Below, one piece after another: positions 16,498-25,281 of a stretch of 64,000 bases of DNA (position 1 is its first letter; every line of letters starts with the position of its first letter). Source of the stretch: Thermodesulfovibrio sp. 3462-1 (GTDB lineage: Bacteria > Nitrospirota > Thermodesulfovibrionia > Thermodesulfovibrionales > Thermodesulfovibrionaceae). Both the position numbers and the translations under genes were made by a program. Below the pieces are notes generated by a model. That model had not been told where the DNA came from, searched no databases, and saw only the letters and a program-made list of their open reading frames with translations. The stretch covers positions 1,714,501 through 1,778,500 of the forward strand of contig NZ_CP144374.1 of the NCBI RefSeq assembly GCF_040451425.1. Direction: 5' to 3'.

Positions 16498-17820
16498 ATG
16501 TTTGAGGCATTAACAGATAAACTTGAAGCAATATTTAAAAAACTCAAAGGCAGGGGTATTCTTAAAGAAGAAGATGTTGATTCTGCTTTAAAAGAAATAA
16601 GAATCGCTCTTTTAGAAGCAGACGTTAACTTTAAAGTTGTTAAATCTTTTATTGAAAGAGTCCGTCATAAAGCTATTGGTAAAGAAATTCTTGAAAGCCT
16701 TTCCCCTGCTCAGCAGGTAATAAAGATTGTTTATGATGAACTGTGTGAACTGCTGGGAGGAAGCACTGCAAAGATTCAGCTGAGCCCAAACCCACCAACT
16801 GTAATAATGATGGTTGGACTGCACGGCTCTGGAAAAACAACCACTTCAGCAAAGCTTGCAAGAATTTTCAAAAAACAGGGTCGCAGGCCAATGCTTGTTG
16901 CAGCAGACCTTCAAAGACCAGCAGCTATTGAGCAGCTTGTTACTCTGGGTAAGCAGATAGATGTTACAGTATTTCATTCTTACGAAATTAAAAATCCAGT
17001 AGAGCTTTGTAAGGAAGCGCTTAAAAAAGCTGTAATTGATAGAATGGATCCAGTAATTGTTGATACTGCTGGAAGAATGCATGTGGATGAAGAATTGATG
17101 CAGGAGTTACAAGATGTAAAAGAGATTCTTAAACCCCATGAAGTTCTTTTTGTTGCCGATGCAATGACAGGGCAGGATGCAGTAAACATTGCAAAAAGCT
17201 TCAATGAAAAAATAGGTATTACAGGAGTTATTCTAACAAAAATGGATGGTGATGCTCGTGGTGGTGCTGCACTTTCAATAAAAGAAGTAACAGGTAAGCC
17301 TATAAAACTTATTGGAACTGGTGAAAAACTTGACGCTCTTGAGGAGTTTCATCCTGACAGGATGGCAAATAGAATTCTTGGAATGGGAGATATTCTTACA
17401 CTTATTGAACAGGCACAGAAAGCCTATGATCAAAAAGAAGCTGAAAAGTTAAAGAAAAAAATCGAAAAAGAAGAATTCACATTCGAAGATCTAAAAGATC
17501 AAATAAGAAAAATGAGAAAAATGGGACCTCTTGAAAACATTCTTTCAATGCTTCCAGGAGCCAATAAAATATTAAAGGAAATAAAAATTGATGAGAAAGA
17601 GTTTGTTAAGGTTGAGGCAATAATTAATTCAATGACACCTGAAGAGCGCAGAAATCCGAAAATTTTAAATGCAAGTAGAAGAATTCGTATTGCTAAAGGA
17701 AGTGGAACAACAGTAACAGATGTTAACAGGCTCATTAAACAATTCAATGAGATGAAAAAAATGATGAAACAGTTAAAACACGGCAAGGGCTTTAAACTAC
17801 CGAAGATATTTCCTTTTTAA
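16498..17820 (+). CDS. ffh: signal recognition particle protein Ffh
   Basis: The GTPase subunit of the signal recognition particle, 440 residues. It has the N domain, the G domain with Walker A MVGLHGSGKTTTSAKLA near residue 107, DTAGRMHVDEELM near 190 and TKMDGDARGGAALS near 247, and the methionine-rich M domain (about 300-435, with GSGTTVTDVNRLIKQF). This is normal architecture. The stop overlaps the stop of the convergent ECF ATPase gene by 4 bp, with no room for a terminator between them. Confidence 0.97.
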   Translation: MFEALTDKLEAIFKKLKGRGILKEEDVDSALKEIRIALLEADVNFKVVKSFIERVRHKAIGKEILESLSPAQQVIKIVYDELCELLGGSTAKIQLSPNPPTVIMMVGLHGSGKTTTSAKLARIFKKQGRRPMLVAADLQRPAAIEQLVTLGKQIDVTVFHSYEIKNPVELCKEALKKAVIDRMDPVIVDTAGRMHVDEELMQELQDVKEILKPHEVLFVADAMTGQDAVNIAKSFNEKIGITGVILTKMDGDARGGAALSIKEVTGKPIKLIGTGEKLDALEEFHPDRMANRILGMGDILTLIEQAQKAYDQKEAEKLKKKIEKEEFTFEDLKDQIRKMRKMGPLENILSMLPGANKILKEIKIDEKEFVKVEAIINSMTPEERRNPKILNASRRIRIAKGSGTTVTDVNRLIKQFNEMKKMMKQLKHGKGFKLPKIFPF

Positions 17821-18479
17821 TAGCTCCTTAGAGTAGAAATCATGCCATTTTTAAGAAGATAGACTTTATCAGTTGCTTGTTCTATAAAATCCTTATCGTG
17901 TGAAACAACAACATAGGTCTTTGCATTATTTGTGAGATATTGAAGAAGTCTCTCTTTAGTTTTTTCATCAAGACCATTTGATGGCTCATCTAAAAGATAA
18001 CAGACAGGTCTCATTGCTATAACTGTTGCAAGTGCAACAAGTCTTTTTTCTCCTCCAGAAAGTTTATAGGTTAATCTATCTTCAAATCCATTTAACCCCA
18101 AAATTTCGCAGGTCTCCTTTACAATTTTTAATGCTTCTTGCTTTGATTTCCCAAGATTAAAAGGTCCAAAAGCTATATCTTCTTTTACTGTTGGACAGAA
18201 AAGCTGACTATCTGAATCCTGAAAAAGAAGTCCTATCTTTTGTCTTACTTCAATAAAATCTTTCTCTTTTTGCCTGACTGTCCCAAATATCTCAACTGTC
18301 CCAGAAAAAGGTTTTAACAATCCCATTATGATGTATAAAAGAGTTGTTTTACCTGAACCATTAGGTCCAATAAGACCAATTCTATCTTCTTCATAAACAT
18401 CAAAGTTTACATCCTTTAGCACAGCCCTTCCATCATAATTAAAATTAATATTCCTGAGTCTTATAATCGGCTCTTTCAT
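17817..18479 (-). CDS. cbiO: ECF-type nickel/cobalt transporter ATPase
   Basis: A 220-residue ABC ATPase, the energising A component of the metal ECF transporter. Walker A is GPNGSGKTT near residue 38, the signature LSGGEKRLVALATVIA near 140 and Walker B VCYLLDEPSNGLD near 160; the Q loop QDSDSQLFCPTV is typical of CbiO/NikO. It is slightly shorter than usual (lacking a C-terminal extension). It is last in the operon, about 30 bp after cbiQ, and ends against ffh. Confidence 0.93.
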   Translation of the reverse strand: MKEPIIRLRNINFNYDGRAVLKDVNFDVYEEDRIGLIGPNGSGKTTLLYIIMGLLKPFSGTVEIFGTVRQKEKDFIEVRQKIGLLFQDSDSQLFCPTVKEDIAFGPFNLGKSKQEALKIVKETCEILGLNGFEDRLTYKLSGGEKRLVALATVIAMRPVCYLLDEPSNGLDEKTKERLLQYLTNNAKTYVVVSHDKDFIEQATDKVYLLKNGMISTLRSY

Positions 18480-18508
18480 GTTTCTATCCCTATTGATGAT
18501 TTTTTAAA

Positions 18509-19252
18509 TTATGCCAAAACCAGAATTACAACAAACATAAAAATTGAAACAACACTGAATATTATATCAATTTTTCTTATTTGAAAATGCTCAAAAAGCG
18601 GAAAATATCCTTGAAAGCCTCTGCAAAGCATTGCCCTGTAAATCTCTTCTGCTCTTTCATAGCTTTTAATAAGCATTCCTCCAACAATGTAGGCATAGGT
18701 CCTGTAAGTGTGAAGCGTTGTTTTTGGAACAAAACCCCTGGCAAGCACAGCTCTTTTTATTTTTAAATATTCCTCATGGATAACTATAATGTAACGATAA
18801 AAAAGAAAGAAAACTGTCACAAGCTTTTTCGGAGCTTTAAGATGAAGCATTGCATGGGCTAAAGAATTAACAGAGGAAGTGCTAAGAAGTGTTATTGTTG
18901 CGATAATGATTGCATTAGATTTAAGTGTAATTGATAATGCATAAAAAATTCCTTCCTGGCTAATCTTTAACCCTGCGAATGAGAAATGACTATTGCCAGG
19001 ATAACTCAAAGGAACAAAAATCCAGATAAAAAGAATAAAAAAATTTGCCACACCAAGCCTTGAAAAAAGAGGCTTTATTCTTAATCGAGCAAGAAAAACA
19101 GAAAAAATAGAATAAAGCAAAAACAAAGATGGAGTTTTCAATCCTGAAGCAGTTGCACAGAGGATACTGAATATTGAAAAAACTATGATTTTTAATCTCG
19201 GATCTGCCTTATTTAAAAAAGAACTTCCCTCTGAAAACTCTTCAAGATGCAT
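18509..19252 (-). CDS. cbiQ: ECF-type nickel/cobalt transporter transmembrane T component
   Basis: A 247-residue membrane protein with several hydrophobic helices and the T-component coupling motifs ARGF (near residue 175) and CRGFQG (near 215), in RAVLARGFVPKTTLHTYRT and YRAMLCRGFQGYFPLF. It couples the ATPase to the substrate-binding CbiM subunit. Its first codons overlap the end of the NikL-like gene by 11 bp. Confidence 0.92.
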   Translation of the reverse strand: MHLEEFSEGSSFLNKADPRLKIIVFSIFSILCATASGLKTPSLFLLYSIFSVFLARLRIKPLFSRLGVANFFILFIWIFVPLSYPGNSHFSFAGLKISQEGIFYALSITLKSNAIIIATITLLSTSSVNSLAHAMLHLKAPKKLVTVFFLFYRYIIVIHEEYLKIKRAVLARGFVPKTTLHTYRTYAYIVGGMLIKSYERAEEIYRAMLCRGFQGYFPLFEHFQIRKIDIIFSVVSIFMFVVILVLA

Positions 19253-19844
19253 TTTTCTTTCTTTTAATAAACATTATTACTCCCCAGACCCCAAAGATAT
19301 ATCCTATTCCTCCAATTATGTCTCTTATACTGATTTTATCCAACTGTTTTCTCAAATCCATCATCTCACTTCTTAATCCCTGAAGCTTTGCTTCCATTGC
19401 TTCATCAATAATTTGTTTGAGTTCTTCTTTATTGATTGATGCTGAAGGAATCTGTTGTTTCTGAGTCTCTTTAACAGGTTCTTGCTTTTTTACTTCCTTT
19501 TTTTCAGGCTTTTCAACTGCCTCAAGGATGTATTCTGCTCTGTGACCTTCTCCAGCAGGAATTACTATTTTTAGTTCTCCAGTCTCTGAAGTTTTAAAAT
19601 TAAATCTTCCCTTTTCATCAGTAGTGGTCTCTGTAATTTTTTTACCTCTACTGTCATAAACCTCAACCTTAGAGTTTTTACAGGGCGAGCCATCAACAAA
19701 ATAGCACTCTCCAATTACTTTATCACCCTCCCTGTATGCATAGGCGCTCACCTTATGAGCATAAACATCGCTGGAAAGGAGAAGTTGTAAGCAAACAATT
19801 ATAAAAAAAAGACAAAAATATCCTGGATTGAGCAACTTTTTCAT
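19242..19844 (-). CDS. NikL/CbiL-like accessory component of the metal ECF transporter
   Basis: A 200-residue protein with a signal peptide (to about residue 29, ending VYA), an N-terminal transthyretin-like beta domain (VSAYAYREGDKVIGECYFVDG to about 110), a charged Lys/Glu/Gln linker, a coiled coil (about 140-172) and a C-terminal membrane helix (IGYIFGVWGVIMFI). This matches NikL-type extra components of nickel ECF systems, which replace CbiN. The presence of both this and a DUF4198 protein argues for nickel rather than cobalt. Confidence 0.8.
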   Translation of the reverse strand: MKKLLNPGYFCLFFIIVCLQLLLSSDVYAHKVSAYAYREGDKVIGECYFVDGSPCKNSKVEVYDSRGKKITETTTDEKGRFNFKTSETGELKIVIPAGEGHRAEYILEAVEKPEKKEVKKQEPVKETQKQQIPSASINKEELKQIIDEAMEAKLQGLRSEMMDLRKQLDKISIRDIIGGIGYIFGVWGVIMFIKRKKNAS

Positions 19845-20434
19845 CTCAATGCCTCCGGTTTTACTTTTTTAATATATAATACAACAAAACCCGTTATTAT
19901 TCCCTCCACCAAAGCAATTGGAAGATGCATTGTAAAAAGAGTTATAGCAACTCCCATAAAGCTTTTTTCAGTTTCAATTAAAGCCAGACTTACAAACACA
20001 GTACCAATAAGCACAGAAGATGCTCCACCAAGAGCTCCTCCAATAAAGGCAGTATTTCTACCTTTGTGTAACAACCTTCTAAAGACATAATATGATAGTA
20101 CTGCAGGCATTGCCATTGCAAAGGTGTTTACTCCAAGTGTTGTAAGTCCTCCAAATTGAAAAAGTAAAGCCTGCAAAACAAGTCCCACAAATATAGCAGG
20201 AAATGCTGCCCATCCAAGGAGCATTCCAACAAGCCCGTTTAAAACAAGATGAGCAGAGGTAGGACCTATGGGAATATGAATTAATGATGCAACAAAAAAA
20301 GCAGAAGAAAGGACAGCAACCTTTGGAATATCTTCATTTTTAATTTTTTTAAGCCCAAGAGTAAGCCCTATTAAAGACAAAACAGCGCCGGCAAGCAGAA
20401 CCGGCGCAGAAAGAACTCCTTCAGATATATGCAT
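19841..20434 (-). CDS. cbiM: ECF-type nickel/cobalt transporter substrate-binding subunit
   Basis: A 197-residue membrane S component. The N terminus MHISEGVLSAPVLL is diagnostic for CbiM/NikM: the amino group and the His2 side chain coordinate the metal, so the start is certain. HIPIGPTSAHLVLNGLVG near residue 53 carries further conserved metal-site histidines. It overlaps both the DUF4198 gene upstream (ATGA-like, 1 bp) and the NikL-like gene downstream (4 bp). The choice between nickel and cobalt is from neighbours. Confidence 0.93.
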   Translation of the reverse strand: MHISEGVLSAPVLLAGAVLSLIGLTLGLKKIKNEDIPKVAVLSSAFFVASLIHIPIGPTSAHLVLNGLVGMLLGWAAFPAIFVGLVLQALLFQFGGLTTLGVNTFAMAMPAVLSYYVFRRLLHKGRNTAFIGGALGGASSVLIGTVFVSLALIETEKSFMGVAITLFTMHLPIALVEGIITGFVVLYIKKVKPEALR

Positions 20435-21204
20435 TATTTCATCTCCCTTGCCTTAACCCAGATAATTCCACCAATCTCAACAGGATATTCTTTCCCATCT
20501 TTTTTAATCTTGTAAGGAGCATCAGTGAGTGCTGCAAATCCCCACCATCCAGCCTTAGGAATTGCATAGGTAAATACACCATTTGCATCAGCTTTTATAA
20601 CCTGTGTTATGTAAGGCTCCTTCGGTGCTTTAACCTTACCACCTTCATTAAAGTATTCAACCTCAACATCTGCAAAAGGCAGAGGCTTTCCATTAACTTT
20701 AACAATTCCCTGAAATACATTTCCAACCCAGAGCCCATAAGGTCTTGTAAGTGGAACAATCTCGATGGGAAGTCCAACTTCCTTATCCCATCCTTCTTCT
20801 TTTCCTAAAGCCTGAACAACAACCTTTGGATAGTGGGCTATGAATTTTTCCTCTGCTGGCTCCCAGTAAGGAACTGGTTCAAGATAAAATATGTAGTCTC
20901 CTGGACGCTTGATTGTAAAAGTTGTCTCCCATGCATTTTTGCCCTTTACTTTTTTGTTAACAAGGGTGCTTAGCAGATCAGTTTTTTCATCACCAAGCAT
21001 TACACCAAAAGCCTTTGGTTTTTCCATGTTAAGCCATTCTTGCTCAAAGGGATGCATGAAATATACTTTCAGTGTGATTTTTTTTGAGTCTTTCTCTCCG
21101 ATAATGTCATCAGATGGCATTATTACTCCAAAATGTGCCAATGCTGTGCCTGTAAGAAATAATACTGCAATGATGCTGATTAAAAGACTTTTAAACTTCT
21201 TCAT
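20434..21204 (-). CDS. DUF4198 (NikK-like) periplasmic protein
   Basis: A 256-residue exported protein with a signal peptide (to about residue 23, ...TGTALA) and immediately after it a histidine (HFGVIMPSDD). It has the DUF4198 pattern FMHPFEQEWLNMEKPKAFGVM, LVNKKVKGKNAWETTF, and PYGLWVGNVFQGIVKVNGKPLPFADVEVEYFN. DUF4198 proteins called NikK accompany nickel ECF transporters and are thought to bind or deliver the metal outside the membrane. It lies 15 bp after the porin-like gene. Confidence 0.87.
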   Translation of the reverse strand: MKKFKSLLISIIAVLFLTGTALAHFGVIMPSDDIIGEKDSKKITLKVYFMHPFEQEWLNMEKPKAFGVMLGDEKTDLLSTLVNKKVKGKNAWETTFTIKRPGDYIFYLEPVPYWEPAEEKFIAHYPKVVVQALGKEEGWDKEVGLPIEIVPLTRPYGLWVGNVFQGIVKVNGKPLPFADVEVEYFNEGGKVKAPKEPYITQVIKADANGVFTYAIPKAGWWGFAALTDAPYKIKKDGKEYPVEIGGIIWVKAREMK

Positions 21205-21219
21205 CTTAAACCTCCTCCT

Positions 21220-22341
21220 TTAAAAGTTAATGTTAAATCTTACTCCATATATATGTCCTGCTTTTGTGCCTTCTTGACGGGTTTTGTCCTGTATGTATTG
21301 ATAATCAAGGGTTATGTCAGAGCTTAAAAACTTATAAGCAAACAACTTAAACTTTACATAGGATTCAAATACTTGACTACGACTCAAATCCAGATTCTTT
21401 GATGGACTCTTTAAATATGCATAACCAACTCCCACTTCATCATCCTTTCTCCCCCACACTGATCCATTAAGATTTAATCCAAATGAAATCATTCTGTTGT
21501 AATCCACTGCTGCAGAGTCATCCTGCCATCCTGCACGGAGGAAAGCTCCAAGTGTGTCTTTTATTAGTTGTTGGTCAAAGGATACTCCAATCCCTCTTAA
21601 TGCCTTATATGCATCTGCATCCCAGTTTTCAAACTTCTTGTTTGTTGTATAGGCATAAAGCCTGTAGTTTCCCTCACCAAGTGAGCTTTCAACTTTGTAT
21701 CCAATCTGTGCACCTATCCAGTTATAGTTTTTTACATCCATATTTTCATTTTCATTTTTTGAACGCATTCCTACTAATCTTAAATGAAATCCACCTGCTT
21801 CAAATTCTGCTGCTACACCAGCATCATAGCTTGGTAAATTAGCTAAAGGATTATGAACCAGAGCTTCATTCATAAATTGATGTAATTCATCTGCTGCATA
21901 GGCATTGTCATCAATAAAAGCTGTTGAATCAATTATTCCTGCTGTTAGCTTAATGGACATATCTTTCTGAATTGGAAACTTATGAGAATACCACAACTCC
22001 TGTAAGTGATCCCTTGAATGACCATTAATATTTTGAAGATCAACAAATAAATCATCAGCATTGGGATTAAGCGTAAAAGGATAATCTCCTTTATGAAATC
22101 CGCTTCCTTTTGCAAAGCTTGCCCTTACAAAAAATTCATCGTTTTCAGTTGGTTTAAGGGATACATTAAAATCAATAACTGCAGAGCCACGATCCTTGTT
22201 TTCAACATTACCTTGAGCTTTGTTGAGCCATTGATAAACTGTTGTTGCTGAACCTGAAATTGATAGCCACTCTGTAATGTCAGCTGCATAAGTAAAAATA
22301 GGAAAAAGTAAAAAACTCAAAACAAATAAAACTTTTTTCAT
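21220..22341 (-). CDS. outer-membrane porin-like protein of the metal-uptake operon
   Basis: A 373-residue protein with a signal peptide (MKKVLFVLSFLLFPIFTYAA) and a sequence of alternating amphipathic strands ending in Phe (GVRFNINF), the mark of an outer-membrane beta-barrel. The composition and segments such as LQELWYSHKFP resemble carbohydrate-porin (OprB-like) barrels, but I cannot name the family firmly. As first gene of the nickel/cobalt ECF operon it may be the outer-membrane entry route for the metal or a metal chelate. The ATG has a strong site (AAGGAGGGG). Confidence 0.72.
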   Translation of the reverse strand: MKKVLFVLSFLLFPIFTYAADITEWLSISGSATTVYQWLNKAQGNVENKDRGSAVIDFNVSLKPTENDEFFVRASFAKGSGFHKGDYPFTLNPNADDLFVDLQNINGHSRDHLQELWYSHKFPIQKDMSIKLTAGIIDSTAFIDDNAYAADELHQFMNEALVHNPLANLPSYDAGVAAEFEAGGFHLRLVGMRSKNENENMDVKNYNWIGAQIGYKVESSLGEGNYRLYAYTTNKKFENWDADAYKALRGIGVSFDQQLIKDTLGAFLRAGWQDDSAAVDYNRMISFGLNLNGSVWGRKDDEVGVGYAYLKSPSKNLDLSRSQVFESYVKFKLFAYKFLSSDITLDYQYIQDKTRQEGTKAGHIYGVRFNINF

Positions 22342-22374
22342 GTCCCCTCCTTAAAAAATTTTTTTTAAATAAAA

Positions 22375-22430
22375 AAGCCACGAAAGCTTAAACTCAAGCT
22401 CTTCTGAGCTAAATTAAGCCTTCGTGGCTT
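22375..22430 (-). promoter_or_regulatory. terminator-like leader hairpin of the metal-uptake operon
   Basis: Read on the minus strand, AAGCCACGAA and a further GCTTAA pair with TTAAGC and TTCGTGGCTT; an inner AGCTC-AGAA-GAGCT stem caps it, and TTTTTTATTT follows. The expected transcription start is its first base. It thus resembles an intrinsic terminator placed between promoter and ribosome site, as in attenuators. I see no cobalamin or NiCo riboswitch consensus. The T-run is on the minus strand only, so it is not a terminator for plus-strand transcription. Confidence 0.6.
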
Positions 22431-22436
22431 GGAAAA

Positions 22437-22466
22437 ATGTTATCAAAATAGGAGATACAATGTCAA
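22437..22466 (-). promoter_or_regulatory. promoter of the metal-uptake operon
   Basis: On the minus strand TTGACA (22466-22461) and TAACAT (22442-22437) are separated by 18 bp. The start of transcription falls at about 22430, the base of the leader hairpin. Confidence 0.65.
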
Positions 22467-22531
22467 GAAAAATCTTGCAAAAATGTAAAAGGTATAATTA
22501 TTATAAAAAATTACAGCAACTGGAGGACAGA

Positions 22532-23881
22532 ATGAGAAGAATTTTACTTTCTGAAAAAGATTTACCAAGACAATGGTATAACATACAGGCTGATATGCCA
22601 AAGTTACCTCCTCCACCACTTAATCCAAAAACAAAGAAACCGATTTCTCCTGATGATTTAAAAATTATCTTTCCCGTGTCTCTTATTGAACAAGAAGTTA
22701 CTACTGAAAGATGGATAGATATTCCACAAGAGGTTTTAGATATATATGCAAGCTTTCGTCCAACCCCTCTTTATAGAGCAATTGGACTTGAAAAGGCTCT
22801 TAAGACTCCTGCAAGGATTTATTTTAAACATGAAGGTTTTGGCCCGGCAGGGAGTCATAAGACAAATACTTCAATACCTCAGGCTTACTACAATAAAATT
22901 GAAGGGATAAAAAGAATAGCCACAGAAACTGGTGCAGGTCAGTGGGGTTCTGCCCTTGCATTAGCAGGAGCATTAATGGGAATAGAGATTACCGTCTATA
23001 TGGTAAGAGTAAGCTATGATCAGAAACCGTACCGCAGAATAATGATGGAAACATGGGGAGCACAAGTTTATCCATCTCCCTCTGATAAAACTGAATCAGG
23101 AAGAAAAATTCTTCATGAAAATCCAGATCATCCTGGAACACTTGGAATTGCCATCTCAGAGGCAGTTGAAGATGCAGCAACCCATAAAGATACAAACTAT
23201 GCTCTTGGTTCAGTGCTAAATCATGTTTTGCTTCATCAAACAATTATAGGACTTGAATGCAAAAAACAGCTTGAAATTGTAGGAGACTATCCAGATATTG
23301 TAATTGGTTGCTGTGGAGGAGGAAGCAATCTCGGTGGTATAAGCTTTCCATTCCTTTATGATAAGATTCATGGGAAGGATTTAAGAGTTATTGCTGTAGA
23401 GCCGTCTTCGTGCCCTACACTTACAAAGGGCGAGTTCAGATATGATTATGGCGATACCGCAGGATTTACACCTTTTCTCATGATGTATACCCTCGGACAT
23501 GATTTTGTTCCTCCAGGAATTCATGCAGGAGGTTTAAGATATCATGGAGACGCTCCTCTCATAAGTCAGCTATATCACGATGGCCTGATTGAAGCACAGG
23601 CAGTAGGACAGACATCTGTCTTTGAATCTGCCATGCTTTTTGCAAGAAGCGAGGGAATTATTCCTGCTCCTGAAAGTGCTCATGCCATCAAGGTAGCAAT
23701 AGATGAAGCATTAAAAGCAAAGGAAGAAGGAAAAGAAAGAGTAATACTTTTCAATCTAAGCGGAATAGGATTTCTTGATCTTCCTTCTTATGAGGCATAT
23801 TTATCCGGGAGGCTTTCTGATTTTGAATATCCAGATGAAAAAATAAAGGAAGCTCTGAGAAAACTGCCTGAAATTTTTTGA
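22532..23881 (+). CDS. trpB2: TrpB2-type tryptophan synthase beta chain
   Basis: This PLP enzyme joins serine and indole to tryptophan. The protein has 449 residues, the longer TrpB2 type: [15 protein letters not shown] and [12 protein letters not shown] at the N terminus are TrpB2 hallmarks. The PLP lysine is in [11 protein letters not shown] and the phosphate loop is [11 protein letters not shown] near residue 260. I chose ATG 22532 because GGAGG lies 5 bases upstream; further ATGs upstream lack a ribosome site and lie close to the divergent promoter. No trpA or other trp gene is here, and TrpB2 often stands alone as an indole-salvage enzyme. Confidence 0.93.
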
Positions 23882-23905
23882 TTTCAACTGCTAAAATCAG
23901 GATAG

Positions 23906-23928
23906 TATTCTTCAGAGAATATTTAAAA
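23906..23928. terminator. weak hairpin between convergent genes
   Basis: TATTCT-TCAG-AGAATA followed by TTTAAAAAATC lies between the trpB2 stop and the glcD-like stop. The stem is short and AT-rich, so it is a weak candidate for termination of either gene. Confidence 0.3.
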
Positions 23929-25281
23929 AATCTTTCCTGGATTCATAAATCCCTTTGGATCAAAAATTCTTTTTATAGCCTGCATCAGTTCAATCTGTTT
24001 TTTTTCTAACTGAATATTAATATAAGGTTTTTTTGTTATGCCAATTCCATGTTCTCCTGAAATGGCTCCTCCCAGACTTACTACAAATTCAAAGATTTTT
24101 TTGACAAGTTCAAATCCTCGAGTTTTTTCCTCTTCATTGCCTTTTTCAACGAGAATGTTTACATGAATATTGCCATCTCCAGCATGACCAAAAGATATAA
24201 TTGGAATATTTGATTCATTTGAAAGCTGATTTAACTTTATAAATGTTTTTGAGAGACTGTCTAAAGGAACAACAATATCAATATTGATTTTTTCTTTGTC
24301 CTGCATCTTCAAAATACATGGTGAGATGCTTCTACGGGCTTTCCATAAATTTTCTCTTGCATAGTAGTCTGTGGCAATCTGCGTTTCTCCTTTAAGTTTT
24401 CTCGCAATATTAACAATTTTTTCTCCATCTCTTTTAATAGAGGTTATTTCTCCATCAAGTTCAACAAGAAGCAAAGCTTCCACCTGAGTGGGCAGCCCCA
24501 ATTCATAATTTTTTTCAATTAAGCTTAAACAGGAGCTGTCAAGAAATTCAAGGGTTCTTGGAACAATCCCTGAGCCAATGATTTTTGGAACAGCCTCTCC
24601 AGCAGAATCTATTGAATCAAAACTTATCAAAAGAGTAATTACTTCCTCTGGTTGTGGTAAAACCCTGAGTATTACTTTTGAAATTATTCCCAGTGTGCCT
24701 TCTGAACCAATAAAAAGCTCTTTTAATTCATATCCTGTAACTCTTTTAAGTGTTTTCCCACCTAATGTCAAAACTGCACCATTGGAAAGCACAACTTCAC
24801 ATCCCAGGCAATAGTTTCTTGTAACCCCGTATTTAACAGCTCGCGGACCACCAGCATTTGTTGCTACATTTCCACCAATTGTGCAGTAATCAAGAGATGC
24901 AGGATCCGGAGGATAAAAAAGTTCATGAATCATTAATTCTTTTTGAAGTTCTCCATTTATAACACCAGGTTCTACAATAGAAGTAAAATTTTTTTGATTT
25001 ATTTCCAGAACTTCTCTCATTTTTTCAAGGCTAATTATAATGCTTTTTGAATTAATAGGAATAACTCCTCCTGCCATGCCTGTTCCTGCACCTCGTGGTA
25101 GTATTTTTAACCCTTTATTTGTTGCCCATTTTACAATTTTTACAATTTCTTCAGTGCTTTTAGGCCAAGCAATAAGCTCTGGAAGGCTTCCCTTTGCATA
25201 GGAAGCATCATAGCTGTAGCATATAAGGTCTTCTTTTTCGTCGGATATTTCTATTCCTTCAATTAATGTTAAATCTTTCAT
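23923..25281 (-). CDS. FAD-linked 2-hydroxyacid dehydrogenase (GlcD/D-lactate dehydrogenase-like)
   Basis: A 452-residue flavoprotein of the vanillyl-alcohol-oxidase family. The FAD-binding PCMH domain (about residues 35-215) contains LPRGAGTGMAGGVIPI, EPGV and GGNVATNAGGPRAVKYG. The C-terminal domain carries FGHAGDGNIHVNI and GAISGEHGIGITKKPYI with the conserved substrate-site histidines. The likely substrate is glycolate, D-lactate or a similar 2-hydroxyacid; sequence alone does not decide. There is no iron-sulfur partner (GlcF/LldE type) adjacent. Its start overlaps the smc stop as ATGA, although the two proteins are functionally unrelated. Confidence 0.9.
   Translation of the reverse strand: MKDLTLIEGIEISDEKEDLICYSYDASYAKGSLPELIAWPKSTEEIVKIVKWATNKGLKILPRGAGTGMAGGVIPINSKSIIISLEKMREVLEINQKNFTSIVEPGVINGELQKELMIHELFYPPDPASLDYCTIGGNVATNAGGPRAVKYGVTRNYCLGCEVVLSNGAVLTLGGKTLKRVTGYELKELFIGSEGTLGIISKVILRVLPQPEEVITLLISFDSIDSAGEAVPKIIGSGIVPRTLEFLDSSCLSLIEKNYELGLPTQVEALLLVELDGEITSIKRDGEKIVNIARKLKGETQIATDYYARENLWKARRSISPCILKMQDKEKINIDIVVPLDSLSKTFIKLNQLSNESNIPIISFGHAGDGNIHVNILVEKGNEEEKTRGFELVKKIFEFVVSLGGAISGEHGIGITKKPYINIQLEKKQIELMQAIKRIFDPKGFMNPGKIF

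Follow-up and report, generated by a model that had tools for sequence, protein, structure and literature searches.

A conserved leader hairpin with two alternative folds before nickel/cobalt uptake genes in Thermodesulfovibrio and its order, a possible antitermination switch in place of NikR

The window analysed here, a stretch of 64,000 nucleotides from Thermodesulfovibrio sp. 3462-1, carries on its minus strand a nickel/cobalt uptake operon with the gene order porin, nikK, nikM, nikL, nikQ, nikO. The first gene encodes an outer-membrane porin of the OprB family (21220..22341, profile search) and is followed by a DUF4198 gene that we take to be nikK (20434..21204, domain assigned by profile). 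Behind these lie nikM/cbiM, the substrate-specific ECF component (19841..20434), nikL (19242..19844, NF058648), nikQ/cbiQ, the ECF transmembrane component (18509..19252), and nikO/cbiO, the ECF ATPase (17817..18479), with nikM, nikQ and nikO identified by profile searches. A second porin gene in the same genome (L029, C1:1191089-1192198) is 98% identical to that of the window and sits in another context, where the 200 nt upstream contain no hairpin of the kind described below.

The leader of the operon, also on the minus strand, begins with a promoter-like sequence recognised by eye and by a promoter scan: a -35 hexamer TTGACA (22461..22466), an 18-nt spacer and a -10 hexamer TAACAT with TG in front (22437..22442). 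Six bases separate the -10 hexamer from the foot of a hairpin at 22430, and transcription is predicted to start at this position or within about 2 nt of it. The hairpin, AAGCCACGAAGG...CTTTCGTGGCTT (22375..22430, 56 nt), was delineated by folding and covariation and comprises an outer stem, P1, and at its tip the mini-hairpin H2, AGCTC-AGAA-GAGCT (22397..22410), which is marked by two-sided changes in all five of its pairs and by a loop rule set out below. The 5' arm of P1 doubles as a second mini-hairpin, H1, AAGCC-ACGAA-GGCTT (22416..22430), recognised by its near-invariant GCC/GGC and loop and by the minimum free energy (MFE) fold of the nascent RNA. A T-tract TTTTTT, followed by ATTT and seen in the alignment as well, adjoins the hairpin (22371..22376), giving it the stem-loop and U-tract of an intrinsic terminator, and the ribosome site AAGGAGGGG (22344..22352) precedes the porin ATG at 22341. 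The gene upstream of the leader is TrpB-like and divergent, so that the hairpin is not the end of an upstream gene.

The promoter is one of three sites with 10 of 12 matches between 18000 and 25000, a region in which promoter-like sites show no excess over shuffled sequence (20 found vs 23.2); taken alone it is therefore weak evidence, and judging from the sequence comparisons the conservation of the hairpin is the stronger. The region 22340-22437 folds with an MFE of -37.9 kcal/mol against -18.8 +/- 2.9 kcal/mol in 200 shuffles (z -6.6, none as good). A simple terminator scan of 18000-25000 did not list the 56-nt hairpin, probably because that scan accepts loops of 3-8 nt only. The layout proposed in the sequence-only reading, TTGACA-N18-TAACAT followed by a 56-nt hairpin and six T's ahead of the porin ribosome site, is thus confirmed by the folding energy and by the conservation of the hairpin.

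A DNA search of 61 genomes recovered this leader in front of orthologous porins within the genus; in other families it found hairpins related to it. The hairpin precedes the orthologous porin in 12 of 16 genomes of the genus, nine of these 12 with a -35 of TTGAC type; the porin copies fetched from G005, G007, G010 and G014 lie in other contexts and lack it, and one further copy in G014 has N's in front. In an alignment of 17 copies (A1), GCCA.GAAGGC is invariant on the 5' side, and 17 cells are changed on both sides of the stem vs 4.6 in shuffles. The larger alignment A3, of 118 rows, has 96.4% of its cells paired and 225 two-sided changes vs 55.6 in shuffles; four of its rows are other-strand matches, which leaves 114 for column counts. 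The sequence-only reading had suggested looking for stem covariation in related leaders and had allowed that the hairpin might prove absent from relatives with the same operon; the stem is instead conserved, with compensatory changes, in the genus and the wider order. Promoter spacing was surveyed in 108 distinct leaders of the order. Of the 62 scored leaders that lack an upstream hairpin, 45 have their best promoter-like site 4-7 nt (18 leaders) or 13-15 nt (27 leaders) ahead of the hairpin; of the 37 scored leaders that have one, 27 have this site 4-10 nt ahead of the hairpin (raw counts in both cases).

A covariance model, R1, built from the 17 aligned copies matched 138 of 176 genomes of the order (E<=0.01) and 137 of 395 genomes of the phylum (E<=1e-3). 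Of these 137, 19 belong to other orders of the class and a further 19 to other classes. Genomes often hold more than one match, some of which are the other strand of the same palindrome. The genome of the window itself has four distinct sites at E<=2e-4. One is the porin leader; the others lie before a TonB gene (27164), before a methyltransferase gene (1048511) and in front of a conserved RNA that precedes mfd (1013256). Three further matches in this genome are weak (E 0.01-0.4). Weak R1 matches are not all genuine; that at L218 was rejected as an ordinary G+C-rich terminator. No Rfam family matched the element, either in the window at gathering score or at six loci with relatives of the element at E up to 5, and the starts of abstracts returned by literature searches held no description of it, nor did a term search of PMC2864571 give an occurrence. 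As far as Rfam and these literature searches tell, the window hairpin is an instance of an undescribed leader family. At one locus, a selenocysteine tRNA (L120:2127-2219) adjoins two copies of the element.

The copies were compared in a set of 109, obtained from 168 R1 matches by removing other-strand duplicates and two loci that were present twice; they come from 92 loci, are the best-scoring among the matches listed and include orthologues. The terminator has a near-constant 5' arm, GCC-AYGAA-GGC, which by itself can form H1. In the 114 rows used for column counts, its bases G8, A9, A10, G11 and G12 are identical throughout, and the pairs 4-12 (C4-G12) and 5-11 (C5-G11) of H1 can form in all 114 and pair 3-13 in 110. 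The bases on the 3' arm that pair with it in P1 vary (opposite G8, C in 95 and T in 14; opposite G11, T in 60, C in 44 and A in 8; opposite G12, C in 91, T in 15 and A in 3), with only the partners of A9 and A10 hardly changing, and 58 of 1254 cells in P1 columns 3-13 are unpaired or gapped, spread over 50 of the 114 rows. An invariant 5' arm whose H1 pairs are kept despite varying 3' partners must therefore be conserved for more than the terminator.

An inner hairpin is present in 98 of the 109 copies (82 distinct). Its loop is NGNA or NNGNA in 87 of these 98, the other 11 breaking the rule, and is closed by C-G in 76. The 11 copies that lack one are exclusively leaders of TonB type, and each of them carries an upstream hairpin with an NGNA/NNGNA loop. 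Such upstream hairpins occur in 47 of the 109 copies vs 8.8 expected from dinucleotide shuffles, although a few of them are weak and could have arisen by chance. Since R1 was trained on such loops and arms, the uniformity inside the element is partly a matter of ascertainment, a bias from which the upstream hairpins, lying outside the model, are free. In another class (L217, L220-L222) the loops of H1 are AUGUA or ACGGA, with the other arm changed to match and the G and A kept. Folding of the window leader gave two alternative structures: for nascent nucleotides 1-38 the MFE fold is H1 plus H2 (-11.6 kcal/mol at 37 C, -3.5 at 65 C), and for the 64-nt leader it is the terminator (-33.2 kcal/mol at 37 C, -17.1 at 65 C).

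In family f10 (L120-L123, L125, L128, L130-L132, L135, L136 and others) a GCCGCGGGAA-type segment follows the T-tract and can pair with the 3' arm of the terminator, in part with matching changes; this pairing could account for an A-C mismatch within the stem of the terminator, and the segment may touch the ribosome site. At L058, L061 and L062 the hairpins are shorter (GCCACAAAG..CTTTGTGGC or a G-rich variant), end in TTTTTTA-type tails and have no GAA-type loops. They precede genes that look cold-shock-like by eye and are probably a different element.

The genes behind the copies were surveyed from element to gene. An operon could be called downstream of 88 of the 109 copies; the 21 without a called ORF include several at the end of a contig or of the fetched stretch. 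ECF genes of the nickel/cobalt type are present in 50 of the 88 operons; in three of these, TonB/ABC genes stand alongside, and a different ATPase may have been taken for an ECF component. The other 38 comprise 25 with TonB, receptor, binding-protein or ABC genes, three with outer-membrane genes only, two with methyltransferase genes only and eight of other content. The copies examined precede cbiM/nikM, porins, tonB/exbB, TonB receptors and other uptake genes. Pfam and NCBIfam searches back the names of representatives of the TonB, receptor, binding-protein, methyltransferase and Phenol_MetA_deg types and of the window genes; ExbB, ExbD, FecCD, UbiX and CspA, and the CbiM, nikL and porin genes of other orders, were named by eye. 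In other orders of the class the element stands before cbiM-like genes and before a NicO-like gene, a weak name given its 16.7 bits to the nickel/cobalt efflux model (cut-off 195) and 22.4 to DsbD_2 (cut-off 24.9). In another class it stands before nikL-like and porin-like genes, often two copies in a row. In family f28 or its neighbours (L216, L219-L222), two elements follow each other directly before porin-like genes, with a further one before nikL-like genes.

Clusters of methyltransferase, TonB receptor and NikA-like binding protein genes lie behind the element at L142, L155, L156 and L167, and at L142 an FmdE gene adjoins a receptor gene. We regard these as candidate loci for the uptake of metal complexes. 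Against TIGR02294 the NikA-like protein reaches 184.7 bits where the cut-off is 393, which makes nickel no more than a hint at these loci.

Control of nickel uptake has been described mainly in terms of DNA-binding repressors such as NikR. A profile search for NikR_C was negative for the genome of the window and for all 16 genomes of the genus, and positive for 36 of 175 genomes of the order and for five of 14 control genomes, E. coli included. Across the order (176 genomes in this comparison), element matches at E<=1e-6 divide the genomes into one with both element and NikR, 91 with the element only, 35 with NikR only and 49 with neither (Fisher p 2e-12, genomes taken as independent although they share ancestry), and at E<=0.01 into 14, 124, 22 and 16, respectively (p 3e-9, on the same assumption). 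The single genome with both at the stricter threshold holds the only strong match of family f5. Among 261 genomes outside the order (G176-G436), NikR was found in 163 overall and in none of the 14 with a strong element match, leaving 84 with neither (p 6e-7); at E<=1e-3 the counts are 12 with both, 26 element only, 151 NikR only and 72 neither (p 4e-5), genomes again being treated as independent. In family f28, ten genomes match the element at E<=1e-3, whereas none appears among the genomes with NikR. Families f2, f3 and f13 hold both kinds of genome, so the exchange between NikR and the element was not one single event. From these distributions the element system appears to take the place of NikR.

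Two mini-hairpins, one of them overlapping an arm of the terminator, are a layout that the element shares with the targets of ANTAR antiterminators (EutV, NasR, AmiR), described in PMC3369931 as two small stem-loops with conserved loop bases, one overlapping the 5' base of the terminator. However, its loops have 4-5 nt (NGNA and AYGAA) and do not follow the hexaloop rule given there, with A at position 1 and G at position 4 (PMC3369931), and unlike in the ANTAR targets its second hairpin usually lies inside the terminator loop. A Pfam search for ANTAR found none in the genome of the window, and 12 of 175 genomes of the order gave matches, five of them over the cut-off; as the 14 control genomes were also silent, the sensitivity of these searches is uncertain and the absence of ANTAR is a weak point. 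A 61-aa protein with the motif HWxEHNxEH was rejected as the factor because it occurs in 127 of 175 genomes of the order, NikR-bearing ones included, and in none of the 16 of the genus. This protein, or a CbiO-type C-terminal extension, is common in element operons (L124, L126, L134, L206 and others). Its alignment (A4) shows an invariant W, HN, H, Y and W (LLxHWxEHNxEH); one member tested against Pfam and two against NCBIfam gave no match, and it is perhaps a metal-binding accessory.

The NiCo riboswitch is a further case of RNA control of nickel/cobalt transport genes, has a four-helix architecture, is linked to exporters and is present in Rfam. The element is built instead from a row of mini-hairpins, and neither the window nor the six loci matched the NiCo model; the sequence-only reading had seen no NiCo consensus. 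That reading had also judged the leader too short for a cobalamin riboswitch; the window leader has only about 90 nt and gave no Rfam match. PMC545781 reports a B12-regulated cbi cluster with cbiMNQO in Geobacter, and control by NikR of nikMQO-type uptake in delta-proteobacteria, including clusters with nikK and nikL, from which the name nikK was in part taken. NikR and its operator likewise control nickel uptake, but act on DNA, and NikR_C was found in none of the 16 genomes of the genus.

We consider it probable, with some reserve, that the element attenuates the nickel/cobalt uptake operon in an ANTAR-like manner, with a factor that would hold the mini-hairpins when nickel or cobalt is scarce and so allow read-through. 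RNA polymerase would start at the foot of the hairpin, and the first ~38 nt of nascent RNA would fold into H1 (GCC-ACGAA-GGC) and H2 (C-AGAA-G). Unaided, the terminator should win: its 3' arm would pair with the 5' arm and open H1, leaving an RNA of ~60 nt as the default product. Read-through would require a trans-acting factor that keeps H1 closed by binding the paired GNA-type loops, since the terminator could not form while H1 is held. Similar loops recur on hairpins of free sequence and in variable order, which suggests that the factor is a protein contacting at least two loops, most likely an RNA-binding protein that is dimeric or multivalent. We infer the direction of the response from the genes, most target operons looking like import of nickel, cobalt or metal complexes, so that the factor would act under metal scarcity and be inactive under plentiful supply. 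The element probably decides whether the uptake genes downstream are transcribed. The earlier suggestion of a new metal-responsive attenuator or protein-bound antiterminator is supported by the covariation, the uptake genes downstream, the lack of an Rfam match and the near-exclusion with NikR; the comparison adds to it the mini-hairpin layer, which suggests a route to read-through, and a regulon that extends past this operon. Against the ANTAR-like reading weigh the searches for ANTAR and the 61-aa protein, neither of which yielded a factor, the 11 of 98 inner loops that break the rule, the 49 of 176 genomes with neither a strong match nor NikR, and the genomes with both at looser thresholds (14 in the order at E<=0.01, 12 of 38 outside it at E<=1e-3).

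A rival account is a ligand-binding riboswitch that would need no protein, its mini-hairpins or terminator themselves binding Ni2+, Co2+ or a metabolite; the small conserved loops, the nickel/cobalt genes downstream and the failure of the searches for ANTAR and of the 61-aa protein to yield a factor all fit. An aptamer can consist of two small hairpins, as in Guanidine-II, and the mini-hairpins may resemble those of Guanidine-II as well as AGNN-type loops and boxB. However, the number and order of the hairpins vary (upstream plus H1, H1 plus H2, or all three), the stems vary freely and it is mainly the loops that recur, a pattern more suggestive of a binding site in several copies than of a single compact pocket. 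Rfam offers no match, and a ligand controlling uptake genes would need to disrupt the antiterminator; we regard a riboswitch as rather unlikely. It is improbable that the short terminated RNA is itself the product, either as a small RNA or as a decoy titrating a factor: one copy in the genus does precede a conserved C-rich RNA and not a fixed gene, but many copies are followed immediately by uptake genes, the start codon lying some 10-30 nt further on.

The remaining readings dispense with regulation by RNA. An unregulated 5' stabiliser or partial terminator, or a terminator of an upstream transcript, might be suspected from the 54 of 109 copies in which the upstream neighbour is an ORF on the same strand. 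In 47, however, the copy of the window included, an opposite-strand ORF lies upstream, and promoter-like sites stand close in front; nor would such a role account for the uptake genes downstream or for the near-exclusion with NikR. We hold it to be very improbable. We give hardly any credence to a DNA operator, with a repressor bound to the palindrome at the transcription start. The palindrome does overlap the predicted start, and the TrpB-like gene upstream is divergent, yet the element ranges in length from 39 to 75 nt, its inner stems covary while the loops stay, a T-tract lies behind the hairpin on the strand of the gene (the other strand being inspected and uncounted), and NikR_C is absent from the genome of the window.

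If attenuation by a loop-binding factor is correct, many genomes would use a regulon-wide RNA switch in lieu of NikR, and its recurring loop would offer a direct bait for a new kind of metal-sensing RNA-binding protein. The shared leader would then also mark candidate nickel/cobalt uptake genes, among them those for the Phenol_MetA_deg-type outer-membrane protein and the clusters of methyltransferase, receptor and binding protein. More tentatively, and as a conjecture that we hold to be somewhat doubtful, we suggest a new antitermination system of GNA-loop mini-hairpins and a metal-sensing, non-ANTAR RNA-binding protein that replaces NikR for nickel/cobalt import in much of the order and parts of the phylum, the same switch in Thermodesulfovibrio driving a C-rich small RNA, which may block ribosome sites and thereby save nickel.

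The candidate for this small RNA lies in the genome of the window at C1:1013199-1013384 (+) (loci L103 and L226-L236) and is conserved. Its layout is a promoter, three GNA-loop hairpins, the terminator and a C-rich hairpin (CACCCCUUAG..GCCCCCUAAGGGGUG, YCCCYYCC), and it looks able to pair with ribosome sites. It was found in 11 of 16 genomes of the genus (10 aligned), before mfd in three of them and before a UbiX-like gene, named by eye, in others.
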